DNA from: a virus
DNA: 23,628 nucleotides
Reading direction: 5' to 3' (one strand)
Virus record (IMG/VR): IMGVR_UViG_3300032092_000262
Span: 1 to 23,628 of that record
Program-made: the position numbers and the translations under genes
In this document: in pieces, positions 946-21,375 of the stretch
Layout of the letters: every line of letters begins with the position of its first letter
Position numbering within the stretch: the stretch's first letter is position 1
The notes under the pieces: model-generated
What the model was told of the DNA's origin: nothing
The model's database searches: none
The model's input: the letters and a program-made list of their open reading frames with translations, nothing else

Positions 946-973
946 AAGATAACACTGAAAACTATGATGTCAA
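946..973 (-). promoter_or_regulatory. Sigma70-like promoter directly before uvsY
   Basis: On the minus strand a perfect TTGACA (973-968), which overlaps the TGA stop of the upstream gene, is followed after 16 bases by TATCTT (951-946) with a TG one base upstream (extended -10). The expected transcription start is at about 939-940, next to the uvsY ATG at 938-936. The motif match and spacing are seen directly; promoter activity is inference. Confidence 0.5.
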
Positions 974-1536
974 GTTACAGATTCAAGTTCAAATGATTCG
1001 AATGTGAATGTTGCACTGATTTGAACTGGTTCGGGTTCAGTTAATGCAACATTCAAATCAAATCCATCGATACTCACGGGAAAAAGATTCTTGAAAACAA
1101 ATCTCTTATATGGATTTTTTGCGCTGTTCAAGCAATGGATTGTTGCTTCTGAATAATAGTTGTTCTCGTTGGTATAAACATCGGTGAAGTCTTCGAATGG
1201 AACAATTCCGCGCATCCATCTGTATATTTCGTACCAGTTTGCAAAATCCTCGTCCACCTCAAACGACACCCTCAACTGATCAAATTGAACAGATGAACCA
1301 GGCACATGATGTGTTAGTAGTCTGTTTGGAATTGATATTTCACCAACAGTTATGGATGGGATGTTCACTGATGTACACCAAAATGTGACATTCGGAATAC
1401 GAGTGAATGTCATCTTAAAGTTGGTACTCTGAAACGCATTTACATTTACTGGTTGTCTCAGCAATGCGTTGTAACTTGTGCCTTCATCATTGATGGCAGC
1501 AGCATTGACTTGTGATAAATCGTATTCTTCGCTCAT
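970..1536 (-). CDS. Tail-tube-like (gp19-family-like) virion protein
   Basis: A 188-residue protein with the layout of a tail-tube subunit. IPSITVGEISIPNRLLTHHVPGSSVQFDQLRVSFEVDED at 59-97 parallels LPGTALGTIEIPYRGRRIKVPGDRTFGDWSITIINDNK of gp19 in this window. FKNLFPVSIDGFDLNVALTEPEPVQISATFTFESFEL at 148-184 parallels its LIGCFPTDISSIDLSYEATDQIEEFSVTLAYSYF. Overall identity is low, so this is a remote paralogue. Tube-fold proteins act as tube subunits, tube initiators or baseplate-tube adaptors in contractile tails. A tail-completion role (gp3 is near this place in some T4-like phages, as I recall) is an alternative. It lies after the gp23 terminator, so it needs read-through or its own promoter, which I could not identify. 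Confidence 0.65.
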   Translation of the reverse strand: MSEEYDLSQVNAAAINDEGTSYNALLRQPVNVNAFQSTNFKMTFTRIPNVTFWCTSVNIPSITVGEISIPNRLLTHHVPGSSVQFDQLRVSFEVDEDFANWYEIYRWMRGIVPFEDFTDVYTNENNYYSEATIHCLNSAKNPYKRFVFKNLFPVSIDGFDLNVALTEPEPVQISATFTFESFELESVT

Positions 1537-6895: not shown

Positions 6896-7465
6896 TTACA
6901 CTGTAGGCGTGAAGTTACTCAAACCAGGAAGCGGTGATGCGTCTGGTGTACCGACGTTTGAAGTGAAGTATGAGTAAGCAAGGGTCACACTAAACTCTTC
7001 GATCTGATCGGTTGCTTCATACGAAAGATCGATTGACGAAATGTCTGTTGGGAAGCAACCAATCAACTTGTATGCCTTAACTGGAGTACCAGTACGATCA
7101 AGTTGATTAACTTGCCAATCTTGAAACACTGGTCCTGCAAGGTTTGAGAACTCGGTTGAAGCAACATTTCGTTCCATTGCTTGAATGCTGTTGACCCAAA
7201 GTTCAAACAAGTTACGCAACTGAAACTTGTTGTCATTGATGATTGTGATAGACCAATCACCGAATGTTCTGTCGCCAGGAACTTTGATTCGTCTTCCACG
7301 ATATGGAATTTCGATTGTTCCCAATGCTGTTCCTGGTAATGATGCAGACTTTACAAGGAATGGGGTGAGCGCACTTTGGCTTCCACCGATGCTTCCTTGA
7401 ACTTCAAAGAGCGATGGCTTGACACCGGCTCCCTGCATTGCATTTGCAAATCTCTTGATGTTCAT
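6896..7465 (-). CDS. 19: Tail tube protein gp19
   Basis: A 189-residue protein (T4 gp19 is 163). The landmark KVPGDRTFGDWSITIIND at 61-78 matches T4 NVAGDRTFDDWTVTVMND, preceded by LPGTALGTIEIPYRGRRI, which parallels T4 LPAGIVEKIPVGFMNRKI. The C-terminal CFPTDISSIDLSYEATDQIEEFSVTLAYSYF corresponds to T4 WPTNVGELQLDWDSNNEIQTFEVTLALDYW. It forms the stacked hexameric rings of the inner tail tube that carries DNA. It has about 20 extra residues after the last strand (TPDASPLPGLSNFTPTV). A late-promoter-like box overlaps the preceding stop codon, and AGGGAG provides the ribosome site, so this gene can be expressed independently of the sheath genes. Confidence 0.95.
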   Translation of the reverse strand: MNIKRFANAMQGAGVKPSLFEVQGSIGGSQSALTPFLVKSASLPGTALGTIEIPYRGRRIKVPGDRTFGDWSITIINDNKFQLRNLFELWVNSIQAMERNVASTEFSNLAGPVFQDWQVNQLDRTGTPVKAYKLIGCFPTDISSIDLSYEATDQIEEFSVTLAYSYFTSNVGTPDASPLPGLSNFTPTV

Positions 7466-7486: not shown

Positions 7487-7494
7487 TATTTATT
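7487..7494 (-). promoter_or_regulatory. Late-promoter-like box before gp19 (tail tube)
   Basis: The minus strand reads AATAAATA, one mismatch to the T4 late -10 element TATAAATA. Its first TAA is the stop codon of the second sheath gene. It lies 21 bases before the gp19 ATG, with AGGGAG between, as expected for a late promoter giving a short leader. Confidence 0.55.
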
Positions 7495-10288
7495 CGATGG
7501 TGGTTAGGTTGAAGTCGCTTCTCACAGCAACGAAGTTCAACTGAACGAAGTTGATGGACTTCAATGGCTTGATATAAATGTCTGCAACAAACTGATTGTT
7601 GTCGATTACTTGCGATGTATTGTTCGTTTCATCACAAACAACCTTGAAATCAGCAATACCACGTTGTGCTTGAACACTGGAAAGGAATGGTGTTACAAGA
7701 TTGCGGAATTGGGAACGAGTAAACTCATCGTTGAATTCAAAGAGAGAATACTTGGCTGCTTTGGCAATAGCCTTCTCAAGGGCAATAAACACTCTACGAA
7801 CATTGATGCGATCAAATGCACTTGGCTTCGTCAACATGGTCTTGTCGCTGTAAAGAACAGTTCCTGAACCATCGTTGAACTGAACAAAGAAGTTGATTCC
7901 ATTCTTGTAGAGTTCATCACGATCTGCCTTGGAGAAGTTTGTTTCTAACTTTACGGCATTTCGGATAAACCCTCTTGAGAATCCTGCTGGAGACTCCCAA
8001 GGAATTTCTTGGGCGCAAAGAATTCCAGCAACATCCGATGCCAACGACATCTTTCTCAACTGATTGTTGAAGGTATCGAAGAAAATCTTACGACCAGCAA
8101 CAAGAATTGTGTATGAGTTCGACGGAACTTGTAACACATTCTTTCTGAAATTGATGGTGTTAGTTGCTGTCTGCGATGAATATTGATTTGCTGCACCTGG
8201 CTTTGGTGATGGTATCACAAGAACAGTGTCCTTGCGTGGTGATATGACTGTATCATATGCAATTCTTTCAACCATGTCAGTTGTTGCTTGAGATGCATCG
8301 TTACTAACAGATGACTCAGGAACAAACAGAACATCAACTGCTGAATCATCGTCTGCAAATATTGAGTATGCTTTCGTATATTCCAGAGTTGACGGACCTG
8401 TTAGTGAAGACTCACCATATGCTAGTGGAGATTCATAGAATCCCTTTCTAGTATAGGTGGCACCACTGGCATCAACATATGAGTATTGAATATCACCGAA
8501 TGCAGTTGTTGCGTTTGATGAAGCATTTCCACCACCAGTTAAACTAAATGGTTTGGTGCAGTACACAAGCCTTGACTTGTTGTTGATATAGTCTTTATAA
8601 TAGATAGACTCACCATCAAGATTCTTTGCATCGGTTGCCTTTGAAAGAAGTTGGAATCTCTCAAGCACTCCGTTCTTTGCTCCAAATTTTCCGCCTATAT
8701 CGATAACTGCAAAACTGATTTCATCGTTTGAACCACCAACATTAGACGCAAATGCGGAGGTATTTGGAATCTTGTCGAAGATAGAAATTGATGTTAAAGA
8801 ATCAGTTACTGTTGTTGTGGTTGTATTTGTTACAGTTGAACTATTTCCAAACTGCTTCATACCGAATGCAAAGTCTCGTTGTGTTCCAGCCAATCCACCA
8901 ACAACATCAAATGTGATACCAATGGCTTGTTGTGTCCCATTTACAGTATTTACAAATGTTACACCGCCAGTAAGACCAACAAGAAGATTCCAACCCTTTA
9001 CTGAAGTTGATGGTGTGCCGGAAACACTGTTGAATATTCTAGACGATATCTGTGACCATGTAGTTCTATACGTTATGAATAGATTTGTAGTATCGCCACC
9101 AGTATAAATTAAGGATCCAAAATGGGATGGTATTCCAGATGTTTGAAAGTTTGTAAATAATGCAGGTAATGTGGTATTTGTGGGTGCTGGATTTGGAGTT
9201 TTAAATCCTATATTCATATTGGTTGAATCAGCATTCAAGAATAGAATATCAACAACATTAGTATTGGTCGGATTAATTTTAGCAAATATAGAACTTGGTG
9301 GGTTTACTGTAGAATTGAACTCTACAAATGGATTGAAATGTGTCCCAACGGATGATACTTTCTCCAAAGCATAGTAGTTACTGTTATTGCCACTTGGATC
9401 GGAACCATTATTCGTTAGTGAGAGATTTTGTCCAGTTGTTCCAGTAGCATAGAAAAATTTAAACGGATCGCTAGCAAGTGCATTGATAAATTCTGTTGGA
9501 TTTTTGCCTGATGGGGGTACAACACTAACTATATTATACTGATGTGATCCACCTGTAATTCCTATGAGAGTAAGACCAGATGGAACGGATCCAGGTGGAC
9601 CTCCCGCTGATTCCGCCCCTTCCGCCCCACCAGCAGAAAGTTGTTCGCTTGCGCTTAGATTTCTATACACTTCAAATGTGTAACCAATAGTTCCGCTGCT
9701 TATACCAACCATCGATGCAAGATTATATCCACCAAACAAGTTAAAATCGGTGTATGCTGTTGTTGTGGTGGTAGTGTTTATAGATCCAGTTTCATTAGTT
9801 GCACCATCCCAAACAATAACTTTGAGCGAATCTCCGAAATTTCCAGGATACTTCGCGCGGAAATGTGCTATTGGTTCAATGCCATCTTGACCTGAAAATC
9901 CGCCGATTTTTGCAAATTCTGCTTCATTGTTTATTCTAGGATAAGTGCAGTTATTGATGCTAGTGATTCCAGCCTCTTGTGAGGTTGAATTCGTCTCAGT
10001 TGATTGCTCAATTCTGATCACCTTGAGATTATTTGAGTACTTCAAAAAGTTCGCTGCCGCAAAGAAATCAATTTCGCTCAAACTATCTGATGGATCAAGT
10101 GTTGGTTTTCCAAATAAAGCAGCAAGATCGCTTTCTGATGTAACACGATTAGCAACTAGGCATGGACCCCAGTTAAAAGACCCAACCATACCACCACTAT
10201 TGAGTGATTCTGGTTGAACAAATTGTGAAAGATCGATTTCCGATACATTTACACCTGGGCTTAGTTGTGTTGGGATTGGACTAGCCAT
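7490..10288 (-). CDS. Second tail sheath paralogue with large inserted domain
   Basis: A 932-residue sheath-family protein directly downstream of the canonical gp18. The N-terminal core is retained (QLSPGVNVSEID, FNWGP, FGKP, NFLKYSNNLKVIRI), as is the C-terminal core. By hand count, residues 815-925 are identical to residues 516-626 of the other copy at 90 of 111 positions. The excess of 299 residues lies between about 165 and 500 and consists of Gly/Ser/Thr/Asn-rich beta sequence, with a flexible Gly/Ala/Glu/Pro linker at 217-238 and Thr runs at 172-177 and 489-493. In known sheath proteins such insertions project outward from the tail, so this copy may be a decorated sheath subunit. Whether it co-assembles with the first copy is unknown. 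A strong AGGAGAG ribosome site precedes the ATG, so it appears expressed. Confidence 0.92.
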   Translation of the reverse strand: MASPIPTQLSPGVNVSEIDLSQFVQPESLNSGGMVGSFNWGPCLVANRVTSESDLAALFGKPTLDPSDSLSEIDFFAAANFLKYSNNLKVIRIEQSTETNSTSQEAGITSINNCTYPRINNEAEFAKIGGFSGQDGIEPIAHFRAKYPGNFGDSLKVIVWDGATNETGSINTTTTTTAYTDFNLFGGYNLASMVGISSGTIGYTFEVYRNLSASEQLSAGGAEGAESAGGPPGSVPSGLTLIGITGGSHQYNIVSVVPPSGKNPTEFINALASDPFKFFYATGTTGQNLSLTNNGSDPSGNNSNYYALEKVSSVGTHFNPFVEFNSTVNPPSSIFAKINPTNTNVVDILFLNADSTNMNIGFKTPNPAPTNTTLPALFTNFQTSGIPSHFGSLIYTGGDTTNLFITYRTTWSQISSRIFNSVSGTPSTSVKGWNLLVGLTGGVTFVNTVNGTQQAIGITFDVVGGLAGTQRDFAFGMKQFGNSSTVTNTTTTTVTDSLTSISIFDKIPNTSAFASNVGGSNDEISFAVIDIGGKFGAKNGVLERFQLLSKATDAKNLDGESIYYKDYINNKSRLVYCTKPFSLTGGGNASSNATTAFGDIQYSYVDASGATYTRKGFYESPLAYGESSLTGPSTLEYTKAYSIFADDDSAVDVLFVPESSVSNDASQATTDMVERIAYDTVISPRKDTVLVIPSPKPGAANQYSSQTATNTINFRKNVLQVPSNSYTILVAGRKIFFDTFNNQLRKMSLASDVAGILCAQEIPWESPAGFSRGFIRNAVKLETNFSKADRDELYKNGINFFVQFNDGSGTVLYSDKTMLTKPSAFDRINVRRVFIALEKAIAKAAKYSLFEFNDEFTRSQFRNLVTPFLSSVQAQRGIADFKVVCDETNNTSQVIDNNQFVADIYIKPLKSINFVQLNFVAVRSDFNLTTIE
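8809..8821 (-). repeat. 13-base direct repeat, downstream copy, in second sheath gene
   Basis: This is the second copy of ACCACAACAACAG (minus strand), at the distal border of the inserted domain. The low-complexity ACN codon run means that chance or convergent Thr-rich linkers could also explain the match. Confidence 0.6.
9757..9769 (-). repeat. 13-base direct repeat, upstream copy, in second sheath gene
   Basis: The minus strand reads ACCACAACAACAG here and again at 8821-8809. The two copies are 948 bases apart (316 codons) and in the same reading phase, encoding Thr174-177 and Thr490-493. They bracket the domain that is missing from the shorter sheath paralogue. Confidence 0.6.
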
Positions 10289-10299
10289 TTTCTCTCCTA

Positions 10300-12201
10300 T
10301 TAGATGATCTCAGTGAAGGTGCTATCTGTTCTCGTTGCGATGAAGTTCAATTGAATGAAGTTAATCGACCTTGCTGGCTTGATGTAAATGTCTGCCACGA
10401 ACTGATTGTTGTCAATCACTTGACCAGTATTATTTGTTTCATCACAAATGACTCTAAAGTCCGTAATTCCTCTTTGTGCTTGAACATTTCGGAGATATGG
10501 GATGACTAGATTACGGAACTGAGAACGAGTAAACTCATCGTTAACTTCGAACAATGAGTATTTAGCGGCAGTTGCGATAGTCTTTTCAAGAGTGATGAAA
10601 AGACGACGAACATTGATACGATCAAACGCACTCGGCTTCTTCAATAGAGTTTTATCTCCAAAGAGAATGGTTCCTTCTCCACTGAATGTTGCAACTGGAT
10701 TGACTCCTGCAACATAGAGAAGATCGCGCGATGATTGATCTGGATTGAATGCTAGTTTGATAGAATTTCTTATAGTTCCGCGGTTGAGTCCTGCTGGCGA
10801 GAACCAAGCCTGTGTTGCAGATTCACTTCTTGCACAAAGACCAGCAATATCGGAATTCAATGGAATGTAGCGGAACATGTCATTGTACTTATCGTAGATG
10901 TACTTCCATCCGCTATCCATGACGATATAAGAGGAATTCATACCATATGTGCTATTTCTAGTTGTGATGACATTTGATGTGGCTTGGGATTGTGTCTTAT
11001 TCAAAACATCGCTGAGTGCTGGTGATACAAACAACACGCAGTCTTTGCGCTCATTGACAAGATCTGCAAGAAGTTTGACTGTTGTTGCATTAGATCTACC
11101 TGATATGAGTAGAGATATATCAACATTGTCGCGATCAAGGAACTTACTGTATCCCTTGGTAAACACATTTGCTGTGGAAGATGAGGCACCAGTTCCTCCA
11201 CTTAGACTATAACGAGAAACCTTTGCGGCAGTATAGCCTCCGCTGATATCGGAGAAGGTGGTTGTAAGATCTTTGACGACAGTTTGGCCCCAAAGTTGTT
11301 CAAGATTACCAGCCCAAATGTAATTTGATTGTGTATTGATTACGGATGTAACATAGTTTGGCTGACCATCATTGTTGCGAGCATCGTATGCTTTCGAAAC
11401 ATTTTGGAATGTTTCTAGGATTGTTCCCCTGGTACCCGTGAACAAACCATCTTCATCAATAACTACAACATTGAGTTCGTCATTTGCGCCACCCTTGGAA
11501 GCGGCTTGTGTGCTTGTTTCAGCAGTTAGTTGGAAAAGATCTGCATACTTACTGCGGAACTTCATGCTCGCACTAAGACCGATTGTGCTTGCAACGTATG
11601 TCTTTGTTGTGACAGTATTTCCTGCGGCAGAATCAACAAGGAAAGTTTGTGCAAACTGATTTGTTTGGAAAATCAATTTGTCGTTTTCTTCAAGTGTTCC
11701 GCCAAGAACTGTAGAGAATCTGATGGTATTTGTTCCGATTGATGCTGTTGCACCAACAGTAAGTGTGGCTTCACCGTCGCCATCGATAACAACAACTTTC
11801 AATGAATTTCCCAATACTCCTGGATACTTGGCATAGAAAGCAGCGGTAAGCCCTTCTGTTCCCCCAAGAACATCTTCATTGGCATATTGTAATCCTGTAA
11901 ATCCAGAAGAGTTTGCGTTGGTTTCGTCGGTGCCTATAGCACGAACAACCCGAAGATCGCGACCGTATTGAAGAAAGTTTGCTGCACAGTGGAAATCGAT
12001 TCCGTTATCATCACGGAGAGGCTTTCCGAAAACTCTTACCAAATCGTCTTCTGATGTGATCGTGACTATTTTTTCTGCTGGACCCCATTGAAATACTCCA
12101 GCGATTGCCGCTGTTGTACTTGCAACATTTGGTGTGACATTTGTGAGGTCAATTTCCGAATAATTCACACCTGGGCTAAGTTGTACGGGAATTCTGCTCA
12201 T
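10300..12201 (-). CDS. 18: Tail sheath protein gp18 (canonical copy)
   Basis: A 633-residue protein (T4 gp18 is 659). The N-terminus has QLSPGVNYSEID, FQWGPA at 37-42, FGKPL and NFLQYGRDLRVVRA, all matching T4 gp18 (LSPGIELKE, FQWGPA, FGQP, NFLQYGNDLRVVRA). The C-terminal core has DIAGLCAR, SPAGLNRG, PSAFDRINVRRLF, SLFEVNDEFTRSQFRN, CDETNNTGQVIDNNQFVADIYIKPARSINFI, again matching T4. It polymerises around the tail tube and contracts to drive the tube through the host envelope. Residues about 150-240 are the variable surface-domain region. TGGAG lies eight bases before the start. It is the closer match to T4 of two tandem sheath genes; the second follows after 11 bases. Confidence 0.96.
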   Translation of the reverse strand: MSRIPVQLSPGVNYSEIDLTNVTPNVASTTAAIAGVFQWGPAEKIVTITSEDDLVRVFGKPLRDDNGIDFHCAANFLQYGRDLRVVRAIGTDETNANSSGFTGLQYANEDVLGGTEGLTAAFYAKYPGVLGNSLKVVVIDGDGEATLTVGATASIGTNTIRFSTVLGGTLEENDKLIFQTNQFAQTFLVDSAAGNTVTTKTYVASTIGLSASMKFRSKYADLFQLTAETSTQAASKGGANDELNVVVIDEDGLFTGTRGTILETFQNVSKAYDARNNDGQPNYVTSVINTQSNYIWAGNLEQLWGQTVVKDLTTTFSDISGGYTAAKVSRYSLSGGTGASSSTANVFTKGYSKFLDRDNVDISLLISGRSNATTVKLLADLVNERKDCVLFVSPALSDVLNKTQSQATSNVITTRNSTYGMNSSYIVMDSGWKYIYDKYNDMFRYIPLNSDIAGLCARSESATQAWFSPAGLNRGTIRNSIKLAFNPDQSSRDLLYVAGVNPVATFSGEGTILFGDKTLLKKPSAFDRINVRRLFITLEKTIATAAKYSLFEVNDEFTRSQFRNLVIPYLRNVQAQRGITDFRVICDETNNTGQVIDNNQFVADIYIKPARSINFIQLNFIATRTDSTFTEII

Positions 12202-14386: not shown

Positions 14387-16852
14387 TCACCTTCCTACGA
14401 ACTGATCAGACGCTCTATACTCCACAAGAGTAGTTATATTGTTATCTTTGAAGTATTTGATTGCAGCAGCAAGTTGTTCCTTTGAAAGTTCAAAGTAAGC
14501 ATCGCGCATAATTCTATACGCAGAACCAATATTGTTGTTGCTTGGATCAGCCCACCTATCTCGCAAAGATGTGTTTTTATACATTATGGATTCTTCATTC
14601 AATGGAACGGTGTACCATCTAAATGTTCCATTGAATCCGTATGGTATTTTAGTGTTGCCACCAGTAAGTCCAGTGTTTGTCTCGTATACTCTGAAATCGC
14701 TAAATCTACCAGACTTAAACGTATTGTCATAATTTGTATGATCCGATTCTGCACCAGTAAGCCCAAGATCTTCTGGAAGACTCTCTATAAAAGATAAAGT
14801 ATATTGCAATCGTTGTAAATCAAAGAAATACGTTTCAAGACCTCTTATAAATGCTGTGGTTGGATCTGTTCCTGATACGCCACGGCTGGTGACAACTCTT
14901 GTATACTCAGCAGAACCTCTTGCAATATTTCCAAAGTAGAATCCATTCAATAAAAGTTGATCCACATCGTTTTTGAGAATAAAGCCATTTGCCGGAACAC
15001 CCCCGTTGAACATAGGCTTGATAAGATACTCAACAAAATCTTCTGGTTTATATGGGACAGAACCACCTCTTGTTAGGTCATAGTCTTCGTTTCTTCCCGA
15101 TACCAATGGAACTATTCTATAATTGAACTTTCCTCTTTGATCCAAGAGTAACTTCCACATCTTAATCGATGATTGAATAGTTACTTTCATAGATTCCTTG
15201 AGGTTAAATAGCCTCTCTGCACTATTTCCACCCATGTCTTGATGGATGGTGCAATCTCTTCTTGACGTGTGATTTCTAGAAGAGGAACCCTGAAACGAAC
15301 CCTTTATTTGCACAGGTATAAATGGGTTAAATCTTGGAACAAACTCCATTGCAAAGAAGTTCATATCCTTGTAGCCACCATATTCCAACTGCTCTTGATA
15401 GATGTCATAGTAATATGAATCAAGGAAGTTCATGGTATTTCCGAGCGGACCTCTAGGACCAGCATTATCAGTAAACAACTTAAGGATGTTTGCTGGGACT
15501 AGACGTGAAGCCTGATATGTGTTGGATGCTGCTGTTGTAGCACCACCAAGCATGAAATACTCATTGTGGAACGATGACTCACCCGTGAGAGACTTGTGAT
15601 AACTGTTCCAACCAGAAGAGCCGCCCGATCCACCAAACGATGTTGCGCCTGTTGGTCCGAGATAGTTGTATGTGCTTGGCGGTGGGTAGAATGTAATACC
15701 CGCAATTCTGTTAAGGAAATATGATGCCCCAACACTCGCGTATGGATCAGTTCCATCCCTAGCAGTGCCTGGAGTTGGTATTGACTGAACCCACCCAAAC
15801 ACTGATGTGGTGTATGGATACGAATACTGACCCAAATTTGCGTTCACCGATGGAATTGCTCGGTATCTTCTAGGATATGTCTTAATCTCATTAAAGAACC
15901 TCTCATTGAAACTCTTACTGAGATTGAATCCATCAAGGTTAACGTAATTTCCTGTCTTACCGGAATTACGAATGAGTTCCACAGACCATGCTGGATTTGC
16001 TGAGTTTCCAACATACTGAGAAATCATTGCTGTTTGACCGTCCATAAGATCATTGTCCGAATACTTTATGAACGATGAATATGGTTCAAAAGAAGAAATA
16101 AGACCCGAGAAGGTTATTCCTCTATCGAATAGAATGGCGAAGTTTCTTCTTGTGGAGAAATGAATATCTGGTGTAAAGTAGATTGATCTTACCGACGCAC
16201 TTAAACCAGTATTTGCAGATAGACCGAAGTATAGCGGAGAGTCTAGCGTTGCAGTTGGTAATCCATTGCTGTGTGTAAGACCAAGAACTGATGGGTTTTC
16301 AAGTAATTGAAATGGTGAGAGAACTCCACCAAAGTTTACTATGGTGTATGTTCCAGCAGACGAACCCTTCAGGGTAACACCAGTGAATGCCGTTATTCCG
16401 ACTGGTTGATTTGAACCCGTAATGCTGTAAAACTGTGGGTACTGTAGAAGGATATTTGTATTGTCGTAGAGAGGTTTGAAAGCCCCATATGAAGATGAAT
16501 ATCCTATAGTGCAAAATTCTGCTTCTCTTAATTGATCTGCGTCATAAAGAACTTCATGACCTAAACTTTGGAGATATGTAAGACCAGCAAAGAATCTGCT
16601 GTGTTCAAAAGTCAATCCATCTCCCACACCAGTAAGAGAAGTAGTGAATGAGTTGCGATTTTCTGTTGGAGCGAAATACGGAATAATGCTTCTGCTGAAA
16701 AAAATCTCGGGTGTGATTTCTTTCTGTTCAACTGTAATTCGTATCTTCTTTATCGTATTTGCGGTGGTCAAATCAGCAGATTCAGTAGCAATCGTGATGA
16801 TACGATACTGATTTAAGAATCCATCCAGATTTCTTTCTGCTGTTGATGACAT
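14387..16852 (-). CDS. Large virion protein of unknown function between gp15 and gp16
   Basis: An 821-residue protein I do not recognise. It is rich in Gly, Ser, Thr, Asn, Tyr and Phe, with many short turns of the type GLTG, GVTL or GITF, so a beta-rich structural protein is likely. The N-terminus is more regular (IKKIRITVEQKEITPEIFFS, residues 28-47), and a helical segment lies at the C-terminus (FELSKEQLAAAIKYFKDN). There is no signal peptide, membrane segment or visible enzyme motif. The ATG is fused to the gp15 stop with no spacing and the gene is followed after six bases by gp16, so it is embedded in the neck/packaging operon. T4 has no gene at this place. Neck appendage, whisker-like or tail-associated roles are possible; this is inference from position. 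Confidence 0.75.
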   Translation of the reverse strand: MSSTAERNLDGFLNQYRIITIATESADLTTANTIKKIRITVEQKEITPEIFFSRSIIPYFAPTENRNSFTTSLTGVGDGLTFEHSRFFAGLTYLQSLGHEVLYDADQLREAEFCTIGYSSSYGAFKPLYDNTNILLQYPQFYSITGSNQPVGITAFTGVTLKGSSAGTYTIVNFGGVLSPFQLLENPSVLGLTHSNGLPTATLDSPLYFGLSANTGLSASVRSIYFTPDIHFSTRRNFAILFDRGITFSGLISSFEPYSSFIKYSDNDLMDGQTAMISQYVGNSANPAWSVELIRNSGKTGNYVNLDGFNLSKSFNERFFNEIKTYPRRYRAIPSVNANLGQYSYPYTTSVFGWVQSIPTPGTARDGTDPYASVGASYFLNRIAGITFYPPPSTYNYLGPTGATSFGGSGGSSGWNSYHKSLTGESSFHNEYFMLGGATTAASNTYQASRLVPANILKLFTDNAGPRGPLGNTMNFLDSYYYDIYQEQLEYGGYKDMNFFAMEFVPRFNPFIPVQIKGSFQGSSSRNHTSRRDCTIHQDMGGNSAERLFNLKESMKVTIQSSIKMWKLLLDQRGKFNYRIVPLVSGRNEDYDLTRGGSVPYKPEDFVEYLIKPMFNGGVPANGFILKNDVDQLLLNGFYFGNIARGSAEYTRVVTSRGVSGTDPTTAFIRGLETYFFDLQRLQYTLSFIESLPEDLGLTGAESDHTNYDNTFKSGRFSDFRVYETNTGLTGGNTKIPYGFNGTFRWYTVPLNEESIMYKNTSLRDRWADPSNNNIGSAYRIMRDAYFELSKEQLAAAIKYFKDNNITTLVEYRASDQFVGR

Positions 16853-19141: not shown

Positions 19142-19429
19142 CTACCTCCTAGCATTTCGAAGATGTTCAATATGCTTTTCGTCTATCTCTCTCTGCTGTT
19201 TGCAGAGTTTTATCTGTGCTTTATTTTTTAAAATGTTCTCGCCAAGGATATATGGAATATTCAAGCCAACTTGATTCAACCCGTTAGATTTATAATGTTT
19301 CTTGCCATCGTAATAATGAATAACATCTTCTACAACGTATTCCGAAAATATTGCTTGAACATCTTTAACGGAGAAAACTTCTCCATCAATAATAAAGATA
19401 TCACCAATACGCTTAAATCCAGTTATCAT
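19142..19429 (-). CDS. Small protein of unknown function
   Basis: A 95-residue protein I do not recognise. The N-terminal two thirds looks like a compact alpha/beta unit (GDIFIIDGEVFSVKDVQAIF, VIHYYDGKKHYKSN), and the last 30 residues form a basic helix (ILKNKAQIKLCKQQREIDEK). The start ATG overlaps the stop of the LamG gene in an ATGA arrangement. Two bases separate its TAG stop from the next ATG, and the strong Shine-Dalgarno sequence of gp13 (TAGGAGGT) lies inside its 3' end. This tight packing supports a real, co-translated gene. It has no hydrophobic segment, so a membrane role is unlikely. It may be a minor structural or assembly protein, but there is no direct evidence. Confidence 0.6.
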   Translation of the reverse strand: MITGFKRIGDIFIIDGEVFSVKDVQAIFSEYVVEDVIHYYDGKKHYKSNGLNQVGLNIPYILGENILKNKAQIKLCKQQREIDEKHIEHLRNARR

Positions 19430-21375
19430 GGTCCAAGTGCTTCTGGTTCCTCTGATGCAAATGGTAAGTTCTTCGTACCACCACTAGTCTTTCCATTTTT
19501 AACACCACTCTTCGTTGTTGCCGCTGCAATTTCTCGTTTAACGGATCTATATTTCTCATCAAGTCGAGCATAGTAATCAAGCAAATCAAGACGAAGATTA
19601 CTTATTTGTTGAGCAGTTAACACTCTATCAAAATTCAATCCATCGGTAAATCTATAACTCGACAAGCATATTCCTTGAGTTGCAAGCAATCCACTAGTCA
19701 AAATGTAGTTTAACGTATTGGTATCAAATGGATTTATGAACAGCGAATTGTATGCTCCTGCTGAAAATCCATATGAATCGCCGCTTGAGAATAATCTACC
19801 AAATGGATTTTTGCCTAAAAGAGTATCAAAAGCATTACCACACGAACCACGATTACCACAAGCACCTTGAATGAGTTCAGATCGTTCAAGCATGTTTTCA
19901 AACTTGACGTTGGTGTTATAGTGATTGATGAAATCTTGAAGAGTCAATCCGCTATCTGTAATTGATATCAGATTGAAAGAATAATCATAATCAACAGCAT
20001 TTCCCAAAGTTGTTCCTAATGGGAACGGATTAAAGTATCTTCTTGAGATTGGACCATACGCAAGAGAGAAGCCTGTGGCATCGGTATATGCGGTTGCCCC
20101 ACTCAAACCACGTTGATAACGATAGACATCACGAACGCCAACACTAGCGGTAGTTGCAAGACCAACAGTTCCTCCTGGGAGGAAAGTGAGATCCGTCATT
20201 CTAGAAACTATTCCAACCAAATAATCTGTGCTTTCTGCAAAGAAAGCATCATACCCATCAAGGTTGTTGAAGTTCATTACAAAGCAAATGTCTTGTGACT
20301 GATGTGTAAATCCTGCAAGAGTTGGAACTCCTGTGAGTGTGTTTCCGCCATATGGATAGAAGCCGTAAGCAGAAATAAATCCGCCCGTGTTGTCTGCATC
20401 AAAGACTCGCAAAGAGTCAATATACCCATTAAAAGATTCGGAGCCGCTATGGTTGTTTCCGATATAAAGCCCGGACGTATTGGTGTTCTCAGGAATTAAA
20501 GTAAATCCACCACTAACAGTAAATTTCTTTATGTTATTGAAATATGCACTAATGTCATAACTAGAACCGGATGCGTTGGTTTTGATTAGAGATACTGCAA
20601 CATGATTCCAAGCATTTAAACTTATTCCGGCTGAGTTAACGATATTTTGTGTTTGATTGAACCCTGAAGTCGTTCCATTTATTTGCCATACAAATTGAAG
20701 TTGAGTTCCGCTGCTGTCATATGACAACTTCCAATTTGCAGATGCGCCATCAGTTCCCTTTTGTATTAGCGTAAAATTATTTGCTAAACTCGTTGGGTAG
20801 AAAAACATCTCAAATCCATAACTAGAATATGCATTGCTGGTATTTCCTGCACCGAGCATGTTGTGGGGAGCAGTCGTTCCAGTTCTAGATCTTTTTACGA
20901 GATTTGTAACATAAACAAATCCACCTGTAGCACCACCACCATCCCGCGTAAACTTTCCGGATGATGTGCCAAATTTCTTAACTGTGGATGAGTGTGTTGG
21001 TTTTGTGGTTGAACTGCTTGTGTTGTAAACAACAGTAGTTTTTGTTATGTCTTGAACGATTGGTGAGTTGAATGACAAGTATGGGTATGGATTCTGCATA
21101 CCAAGAATAACTTCAACTCTTGGATCATAATAAGTATCACGTTCTATATTCTGAATTATTCTTGATCCATCAATGTTAAAGTCTTCGGCTGGTGCTATAG
21201 CATTTTCTAAAGCAGAGAGTTCATCTCCAGTTGGTAAATATGCTTCATCGATGTAAGCATATAGTCTTCTATTGAGAATATCACCAAACTCAGGAATATC
21301 AAAATCGGTATACGCTTTTGGATATATTCGGGTGATCTTTCCGTATTGATTAAGTGTGACTAGTCTAAAAGCCAT
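19426..21375 (-). CDS. LamG/concanavalin-like domain virion protein
   Basis: A 649-residue protein. Residues about 110-330 look like a laminin-G/concanavalin A-like jelly roll. They contain the strand YGFEMFFYP, then LIQKGTDG, the characteristic AWNHVAVSLIK near residue 258, and LYIGNNHSGSESFNGYIDSLRVFD near residues 300-325; this order (F-E-W-F strand, WNHVA, YIDELRIFD-like end) is the usual LamG_3 signature. Such domains bind glycans or other surface ligands, so host or particle adhesion is likely. Outside it are an N-terminal segment with YIDEAYLPTGDE, a Cys-rich turn (ACGNRGSCGN) near residue 500, and a charged helical segment near residue 605 (ISNLRLDLLDYYARLDEKYR) before a Gly/Lys-rich tail. 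GAGG lies five bases before the ATG. Its stop overlaps the next gene by ATGA. The virion role is inferred from its neighbours. Confidence 0.75.
   Translation of the reverse strand: MAFRLVTLNQYGKITRIYPKAYTDFDIPEFGDILNRRLYAYIDEAYLPTGDELSALENAIAPAEDFNIDGSRIIQNIERDTYYDPRVEVILGMQNPYPYLSFNSPIVQDITKTTVVYNTSSSTTKPTHSSTVKKFGTSSGKFTRDGGGATGGFVYVTNLVKRSRTGTTAPHNMLGAGNTSNAYSSYGFEMFFYPTSLANNFTLIQKGTDGASANWKLSYDSSGTQLQFVWQINGTTSGFNQTQNIVNSAGISLNAWNHVAVSLIKTNASGSSYDISAYFNNIKKFTVSGGFTLIPENTNTSGLYIGNNHSGSESFNGYIDSLRVFDADNTGGFISAYGFYPYGGNTLTGVPTLAGFTHQSQDICFVMNFNNLDGYDAFFAESTDYLVGIVSRMTDLTFLPGGTVGLATTASVGVRDVYRYQRGLSGATAYTDATGFSLAYGPISRRYFNPFPLGTTLGNAVDYDYSFNLISITDSGLTLQDFINHYNTNVKFENMLERSELIQGACGNRGSCGNAFDTLLGKNPFGRLFSSGDSYGFSAGAYNSLFINPFDTNTLNYILTSGLLATQGICLSSYRFTDGLNFDRVLTAQQISNLRLDLLDYYARLDEKYRSVKREIAAATTKSGVKNGKTSGGTKNLPFASEEPEALGP

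Follow-up and report, generated by a model that had tools for sequence, protein, structure and literature searches.

Unequal tandem tail sheath genes in a lineage of T4-supergroup viruses, with an exchanged middle region in the longer gene

The window analysed here is a virus record of 23,628 bases, corresponding to the late-gene block of a T4-supergroup myovirus, and is probably a fragment. In order of transcription, and all on the minus strand, it carries gp15, an orphan of 821 aa, gp16, gp17, two sheath genes designated S and B, gp19 and gp20, followed by a prohead gene, gp21, gp22, gp23, a second tube-like gene and UvsY, the T4 gene names being taken from family descriptions. The order gp17-gp18-gp19-gp20 is found, with the terL, S, B, tube and portal genes consecutive. 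The gp19 tail tube gene (6896..7465, minus strand) is the next downstream of B (phrog_45, E 5.6e-54; PF06841 above the cut-off) and encodes the presumed partner of both S and B. The second gp19-like tube gene (970-1536, minus strand) lies between gp23 and uvsY, a slot that holds gp3 in some relatives; it matches phrog_45 with E 7.4e-31, and its Pfam gp19 match is below the cut-off. The 821-aa orphan (14387-16852, minus strand), between gp15 and gp16, has no Pfam or PHROG match and outpaces its neighbours, with 89% identity in L008 and 85% over 541 residues in L024 against 99-100% for the terminase genes; this divergence has no sharp edges. Upstream of the neck genes, a 649-aa protein (19426-21375, minus strand) contains a Laminin_G_3 lectin-like domain (E 8.8e-14) and is possibly a fibre or adhesin. 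A scan for T4-type late promoters, allowing one mismatch, was uninformative (27 sites against 22.1 expected).

S (10300..12201, minus strand, ATG start) encodes a canonical T4 gp18-type tail sheath of 633 aa, and B (7490..10288, minus strand, ATG start) a sheath paralogue of 932 aa. The first-pass annotation had placed a 932-residue paralogue 11 bases after a 633-residue sheath, and both ORFs and the gap were found as described. These 11 nt (10289..10299, minus strand), from the S stop to the B start, contain the ribosome site of B, which is of the AGGAGA type, and TGGAGA precedes S; in the tandem relatives the gap is 11 or 9 nt. Matches to PHROGs and Pfam, together with the predicted folds, identify the two as sheath proteins of the gp18 type. 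Each matched the tail sheath family phrog_23 (E 1e-122 for S and 1.5e-85 for B), the subtilisin-like sheath domain PF04984 (45.8 and 32.6 bits, cut-off 31.4) and the C-terminal polymerisation domain PF17482 (69.3 and 62.4 bits, cut-off 26.9). The N-terminal region of gp18 domain III (PF22671) was matched by S above the cut-off (50.3 bits) and by B, over the stretch 33-93, below it (24.2 bits against 27.0, E 4.1e-05). The best Foldseek matches of S were T4-type sheath chains, headed by the T4 tail sheath chain (E 1.6e-32). The AF2 model of B, with a pTM of 0.51 and much of its C-terminal core at low confidence, matched T4 gp18M (3foa_B) with a Z of 26.1 and an rmsd of 3.6 over 351 residues.

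S and B were aligned by BLASTP at E 5e-107, with 205/434 identical residues in the C-terminal two thirds and 66/160 in the N-terminus. Residues 1-162 of B (9803..10288, minus strand) are homologous to S and comprise the N-terminal arm and the start of the core. They are followed by the insert, residues 163-500 (8789..9802, minus strand), which is hypervariable and exchanged among close relatives, and by the middle, residues 501-819 (7832..8788, minus strand), with the subtilisin-like sheath domain (PF04984 over 685-818). Residues 820-932 (7493..7831, minus strand) are the conserved C-terminal polymerisation core and arm (PF17482 over 820-919), as are residues 521-633 of S (10303..10641, minus strand; PF17482 over 522-620). 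Identity between S and B in the window is 48% over S 1-100, 33-40% in the mid-part and 78% (88/113) over the last 113 aligned residues, and an earlier count of 90/111 for the core is exact for the best 111-residue window. The accompanying statement that the N-terminal and middle parts differ widely holds for the middle, where the main difference lies, and not for the N-terminus, which at 48% over residues 1-100 is clearly homologous. The largest difference is the insert itself, for which 338 residues of B face about 78 in S (142-219).

The tandem S-B pair is a feature of a lineage of uncultured T4-like viruses and not a peculiarity of the window. S, whole or in part, is directly upstream of B in 39 of 50 B-bearing IMG/VR contigs, and the other 11 start inside B; no B without S was found among the B-bearing contigs wherever upstream DNA is present. 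Our relatives were 40 loci from a search with B and the best 80 of 545 from a search with a B alignment, the two sets overlapping. Among the relatives so listed, 29 show S then B and 10 only B; nine of these ten start inside B and the last, L003, starts in the final 45 residues of S. Scanning with the insert only gave 11 additional contigs, 9 with S directly upstream and 2 starting inside B. Many B-bearing contigs are near copies, and 14 loci with both genes were left after thinning, window included. Across the lineage, S ranges from 630 to 638 aa and B from 892 to 1010 aa, with best-segment identities to the window of 71-100% and 44-100%, respectively. Outside the lineage, the 69 relatives so listed have one sheath gene and no B; the tube is the next of the eight query genes in 65/69, and no tube is in sight in the other 4. 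Two PF17482 matches were detected in all six of the larger tandem contigs (up to 156.6 kb), one being the broken B of L028, and a single one in 11/11 single-sheath contigs. The window itself has two PF04984 matches.

Two sheath genes do occur in isolates, and no tandem pair of the S-B type was found among the isolates sampled. The C-terminal 243 residues of B match 2605 phage records in 2688 places, with one matching place in each of 60 evenly sampled records, T4 included, and ten isolates viewed around the sheath each have one sheath gene there. Two PF17482 matches were present in 2 of 8 hand-picked whole isolate records, Campylobacter phage CJLB-14 and Erwinia phage pEa_SNUABM_22, one of the two in the latter being below the cut-off. 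In CJLB-14 (L124) the two matches are about 24 kb apart, and the sheath match spans two annotated CDSs. Pv27 is reported in part of the text of PMC12063606 to have two tail sheaths; a single sheath place was located in its record by tblastn.

Both genes are under purifying selection. In selected pairs, whole-gene dN/dS was 0.04-0.10 for S (7 pairs) and 0.12-0.36 for B (8 pairs), and the relaxed selection on the longer copy that, according to the first-pass annotation, would speak against a two-sheath tail was thus not seen. The C-terminal dN of B was 0-0.03 across 22 close pairs, and by mean depth in the C-terminal tree (0.129 for B, 0.138 for S) the B core evolves as slowly as the S core. With the pair kept across a diverse lineage and dN/dS low in both, the view that both copies look functional is upheld. 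B is broken in L017 and L028 by blunt deletions of 100 and 103 nt (2902-2903 and 9706-9707, respectively) lacking microhomology, either assembly faults or real loss, which would suit a redundant or decaying duplicate, or a protein working outside the sheath lattice as scaffold, decoy or free protein. Such a reading is very unlikely, however, given the purifying selection and low C-terminal dN. Moreover, B is fully open in all other loci surveyed that are not cut by a contig end, and it is intact in L012-L015, four contigs that agree outside the deletions with L028 and, except at one base, with L017; against L015, the two broken copies of B are identical there, save for that base.

In the full-core tree (544 columns, 63 rows), S and B each form one clade (100/100), the two being sisters at 97/97 with stem lengths of 0.58 for S and 1.05 for B. 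The 123 sequences had been thinned to 100, of which 63 rows entered this tree, including every third of 56 single-sheath rows; the trees did not include L001 and L002, which duplicate the window, L017 and L028, whose B is broken, or any ORF running off a contig end, and S-WAM1 is absent from every tree. Over the 431 columns outside the C-terminus, in a tree of 38 rows (7/16 S, 8/18 B, 14 singles and 9 isolates, with L038, L039 and Bellamy left out) that carries a long-branch warning, B was placed elsewhere by 2.09 log-likelihood units, and the S+B grouping had a p-AU of 0.151. Since these columns neither show nor reject the sister grouping, its 97/97 support leans on the C-terminus. A phylogeny of the C-terminal cores, proposed in the first-pass annotation, was run on those 113 columns alone (FastTree) and gave S and B as separate clades (0.88 and 0.99). 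In these columns, single-sheath relatives average 73% identity to S and 68% to B. Given these values and the separate clades, the likeness of the S and B cores is mostly ordinary conservation, and gene conversion is improbable as the source of the 81% core identity, save perhaps for an old event. Over 14 loci, same-locus S-B identity averaged 76% in the C-terminal 113 columns, 48% in the N-terminal and 35% in the middle region; the C-terminal value was only slightly higher within a locus than otherwise (0.760 against 0.751, permutation p 0.0014), and p was 0.23 and 0.09 in the two remaining regions. A single duplication at the root of the lineage accounts most simply for S and B, although B may instead be an old capture from another phage followed by C-terminal conversion.

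The middle of B is hypervariable and is exchanged by recombination. The clearest view comes from L022 and L024, which differ at 31/1902 nt in S (1.6%, or 98.4% identical), at 1/381 nt in the gp17 end upstream of S and at 43/956 nt in the tube and portal start. In B, they differ at 473/1542 nt over residues 170-700 (30.7%) and at 17/1422 nt elsewhere (1.2%), and a two-edge segment model of B gained 286 log-likelihood units. In the 120-nt identity profile, values fall from 99% to 59% over about 240 nt and then stay at 51-85%, up to a sharp right edge where identity rises from 78% to 98% in one 60-nt step; the exchanged stretch includes the first ~130 residues of B 501-819. The corresponding dS is 1.18 in the insert, 0.06 in the B N-terminus, 0.01 in the B C-terminal core and 0.06 in S. 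Similarly, the window and L022 are 99% identical over the last 132 residues of B and about 30% over residues 301-500.

This contrast recurs among close relatives. The dS survey covered all 153 pairs of 18 chosen loci, with pair figures taken from the 26 closest. In 21 of the 22 pairs with an S dS below 1, insert dS exceeded both S dS and B C-terminal dS, at least twofold in 20; the exception, L007/L010, is near-identical throughout, and the excess is negligible in L022/L023 (insert 0.31, C-terminus 0.29, S 0.29). Some loci recur among these 22 close pairs, which are not independent, and the alignment of divergent inserts inflates dS somewhat, the DNA identity profile showing the contrast without dS. 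Relaxed selection cannot by itself push up the synonymous divergence of a single segment, and it follows that segments were exchanged. Since the stretch of high dS often extends into B 101-162 and 501-690, the piece that is exchanged is longer than the insert.

The pattern of exchange also bears on the location of B within the tail. B might be confined to specialised rings, such as baseplate-first or neck-last discs, where the insert would touch the baseplate, fibres or collar and not the host; minor sheath paralogues in extracellular contractile injection systems might be placed similarly. The AFP sheath, which is built from Afp2, Afp3 and Afp4 according to the portion of PMC12961389 dealing with it, indicates that several paralogues can share one sheath, and the greater divergence of the B core seen in the stem lengths (1.05 against 0.58) is what a new neighbour might demand. 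An insert touching only conserved parts of the phage, however, should not swap while S, the gp17 end and the tube and portal start stay alike, and we consider this confinement rather unlikely.

The insert was found in 21/21 sequences at a length of 300-416 aa, with a mean column identity of 34% and 15 columns invariant in all 21. It aligns with residues ~138-210 of wV7 gp18, presumably the region of the outermost domain I of gp18, and the suggestion that B carries an outward domain is therefore plausible. In the AF2 model, 24 of its 34 ten-residue blocks have a confidence of 78-94, as would suit a folded domain, the weak stretches being both ends and 211-240; with these stretches and a pTM of 0.51 for the B model, the outward pose is a prediction only. 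Because the query in the structural searches was the complete B model, they say little about the fold of the insert itself. No match to the insert was obtained in Pfam or PHROGs (0/21 rows in each), in PDB sequences or in phage isolates, and 53 pattern matches in GTDB genomes gave 0 confirmed. Viral contigs yielded 45 confirmed matches, of which 34 fall in known B carriers and the remaining 11, all new, in further B genes. Judged by sequence, the insert thus appears to have no relatives outside the lineage in Pfam, PHROGs, PDB sequences, phage isolates or GTDB.

Its variability could reflect weak constraint, the insert lying between conserved flanks that favour recombination and having no role in recognition. 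Mean dN is indeed high, at 0.80 in the insert against 0.25 in S 101-220 (153 pairs), and exchange needs homologous flanks only. We nevertheless regard this account as unlikely, as insert dN/dS is 0.21-0.54 in 6/8 pairs with finite dS (several dS values being near saturation), the invariant columns persist, every sequence retains the domain, and S of the same L022/L024 pair was not exchanged.

We favour instead, with a probability of about 0.6, a two-component sheath around one tube, in which S would be structural and plain and B would show an exchangeable surface domain. This two-component contractile sheath would go back to one ancient event in a T4-supergroup lineage, either a duplication or a capture of the same age. 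S would serve as the plain structural subunit, and B would retain the parts that hold the sheath together and touch the tube, namely the N-terminal arm, the subtilisin-like domain and the C-terminal core and arm, bearing a domain of 300-416 residues where gp18 has a small outer domain. Made from adjoining genes with their own ribosome sites, S and B would most likely assemble around a single gp19 tube. The conserved N- and C-terminal sheath core is held responsible for tube contact and assembly in the part of PMC9230969 concerned with it, and as both paralogues keep this core, both would be expected round one tube. B would stud the shaft, mixed with S or in one region, with its exchangeable domain outward, and homologous recombination at the conserved ends of B would exchange this domain along with some of its flank. 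A surface that meets a rapidly changing partner would be expected to behave in this way, whether the partner is host-surface glycans, a competitor or a shaft-docking fibre. The co-assembly of S and B, the outward position of the insert and its role are what we infer from these observations.

It is highly improbable that S and B form homopolymeric sheaths of two alternative tails, made under different conditions or for different particles. Complete cores and separate ribosome sites in both genes would allow it, but the genes lie 9-11 nt apart in one orientation, which leaves no room for a promoter or terminator, and no tube gene is specific to tandem contigs. We found 2-3 tube-like genes in 5/5 tandem contigs searched (three in G001, G005 and G006; two in G002 and G004) and likewise in 7/7 single-sheath contigs searched (three in G007-G011; two in G012-G013). 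The idea of two alternative tail forms, raised in the first-pass annotation, is weakened by this lack of a tube gene that tracks the sheath pair, and a second tail using the 970-1536 gene as its own tube was rejected on the same counts.

A two-component sheath, with two sheath paralogues in one genome, is already in print for phage PaBG, whose gp76 and gp213 were judged to be a gene duplication and were both among the virion protein bands (PMC7412058, seen in part). The PaBG proteins are of similar size (57.9 and 58.5 kDa, 38% identical), unlike S and B with 633 and 932 aa, and their genes are non-adjacent by number, whereas S and B are in tandem. No hypervariable insert such as that of B is described in the PaBG passages of that paper. 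Sections of PMC9230969 and PMC12063606 mention further genomes that have two sheath genes, and two sheath genes are mentioned for Bacteroidales contractile injection systems in an excerpt of PMC7394362. The AFP system, which is not a phage, also has several paralogues in one sheath (PMC12961389, in part); its sheath protein is of the one-domain type (PMC9230969, in part), and the passages on these injection systems describe no swapped outer domain. T4 gp18 belongs to the same family as S and B and occupies the same place between gp17 and gp19, with one sheath gene. Single large gp18s occur in cyanophages such as S-WAM1. Its sheath, the best viral structural match of B, equals B in length at 932 aa, and the S-WAM1 record has one PF17482 match and hence a single sheath gene. 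T4 Hoc is a dispensable head decoration with Ig-like domains and, unlike B, no sheath fold. It is an analogue of B and not a relative, joining a conserved anchor domain to variable outward domains on the virion (PMC10385173, seen in part).

For the extra domains of sheath proteins, both adhesion and stability have been proposed (PMC9230969, in the part seen). A more specific possibility, which we put forward tentatively and do not favour, is that the tail shaft is an adaptive recognition surface: co-polymerised B would show an array of swappable domains binding host or particle surfaces, in an adhesin- or antigen-like role comparable to that of fibres and Hoc, and S would keep contraction safe from change. 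Our searches of open-licence PMC papers turned up no T4-type tandem pair of sheath genes in which an outer domain is exchanged, and nothing direct on hypervariable sheaths. As far as our searches reach, what is new is a tandem arrangement of two T4-type sheath genes that differ greatly in size, its presence throughout a lineage and the exchanged middle of B. Sheaths are normally viewed as conserved motors. In this lineage, duplication seems to have separated the motor from the display, with the display part swapped between near-identical viruses, which suggests that the tail shaft itself would show a changeable surface. If virions confirm it, the pair would be a natural case of a contractile sheath that is heteropolymeric and carries a variable outer module, and would offer both a handle on the purpose of extra sheath domains and a natural design for decorating contractile tubes.
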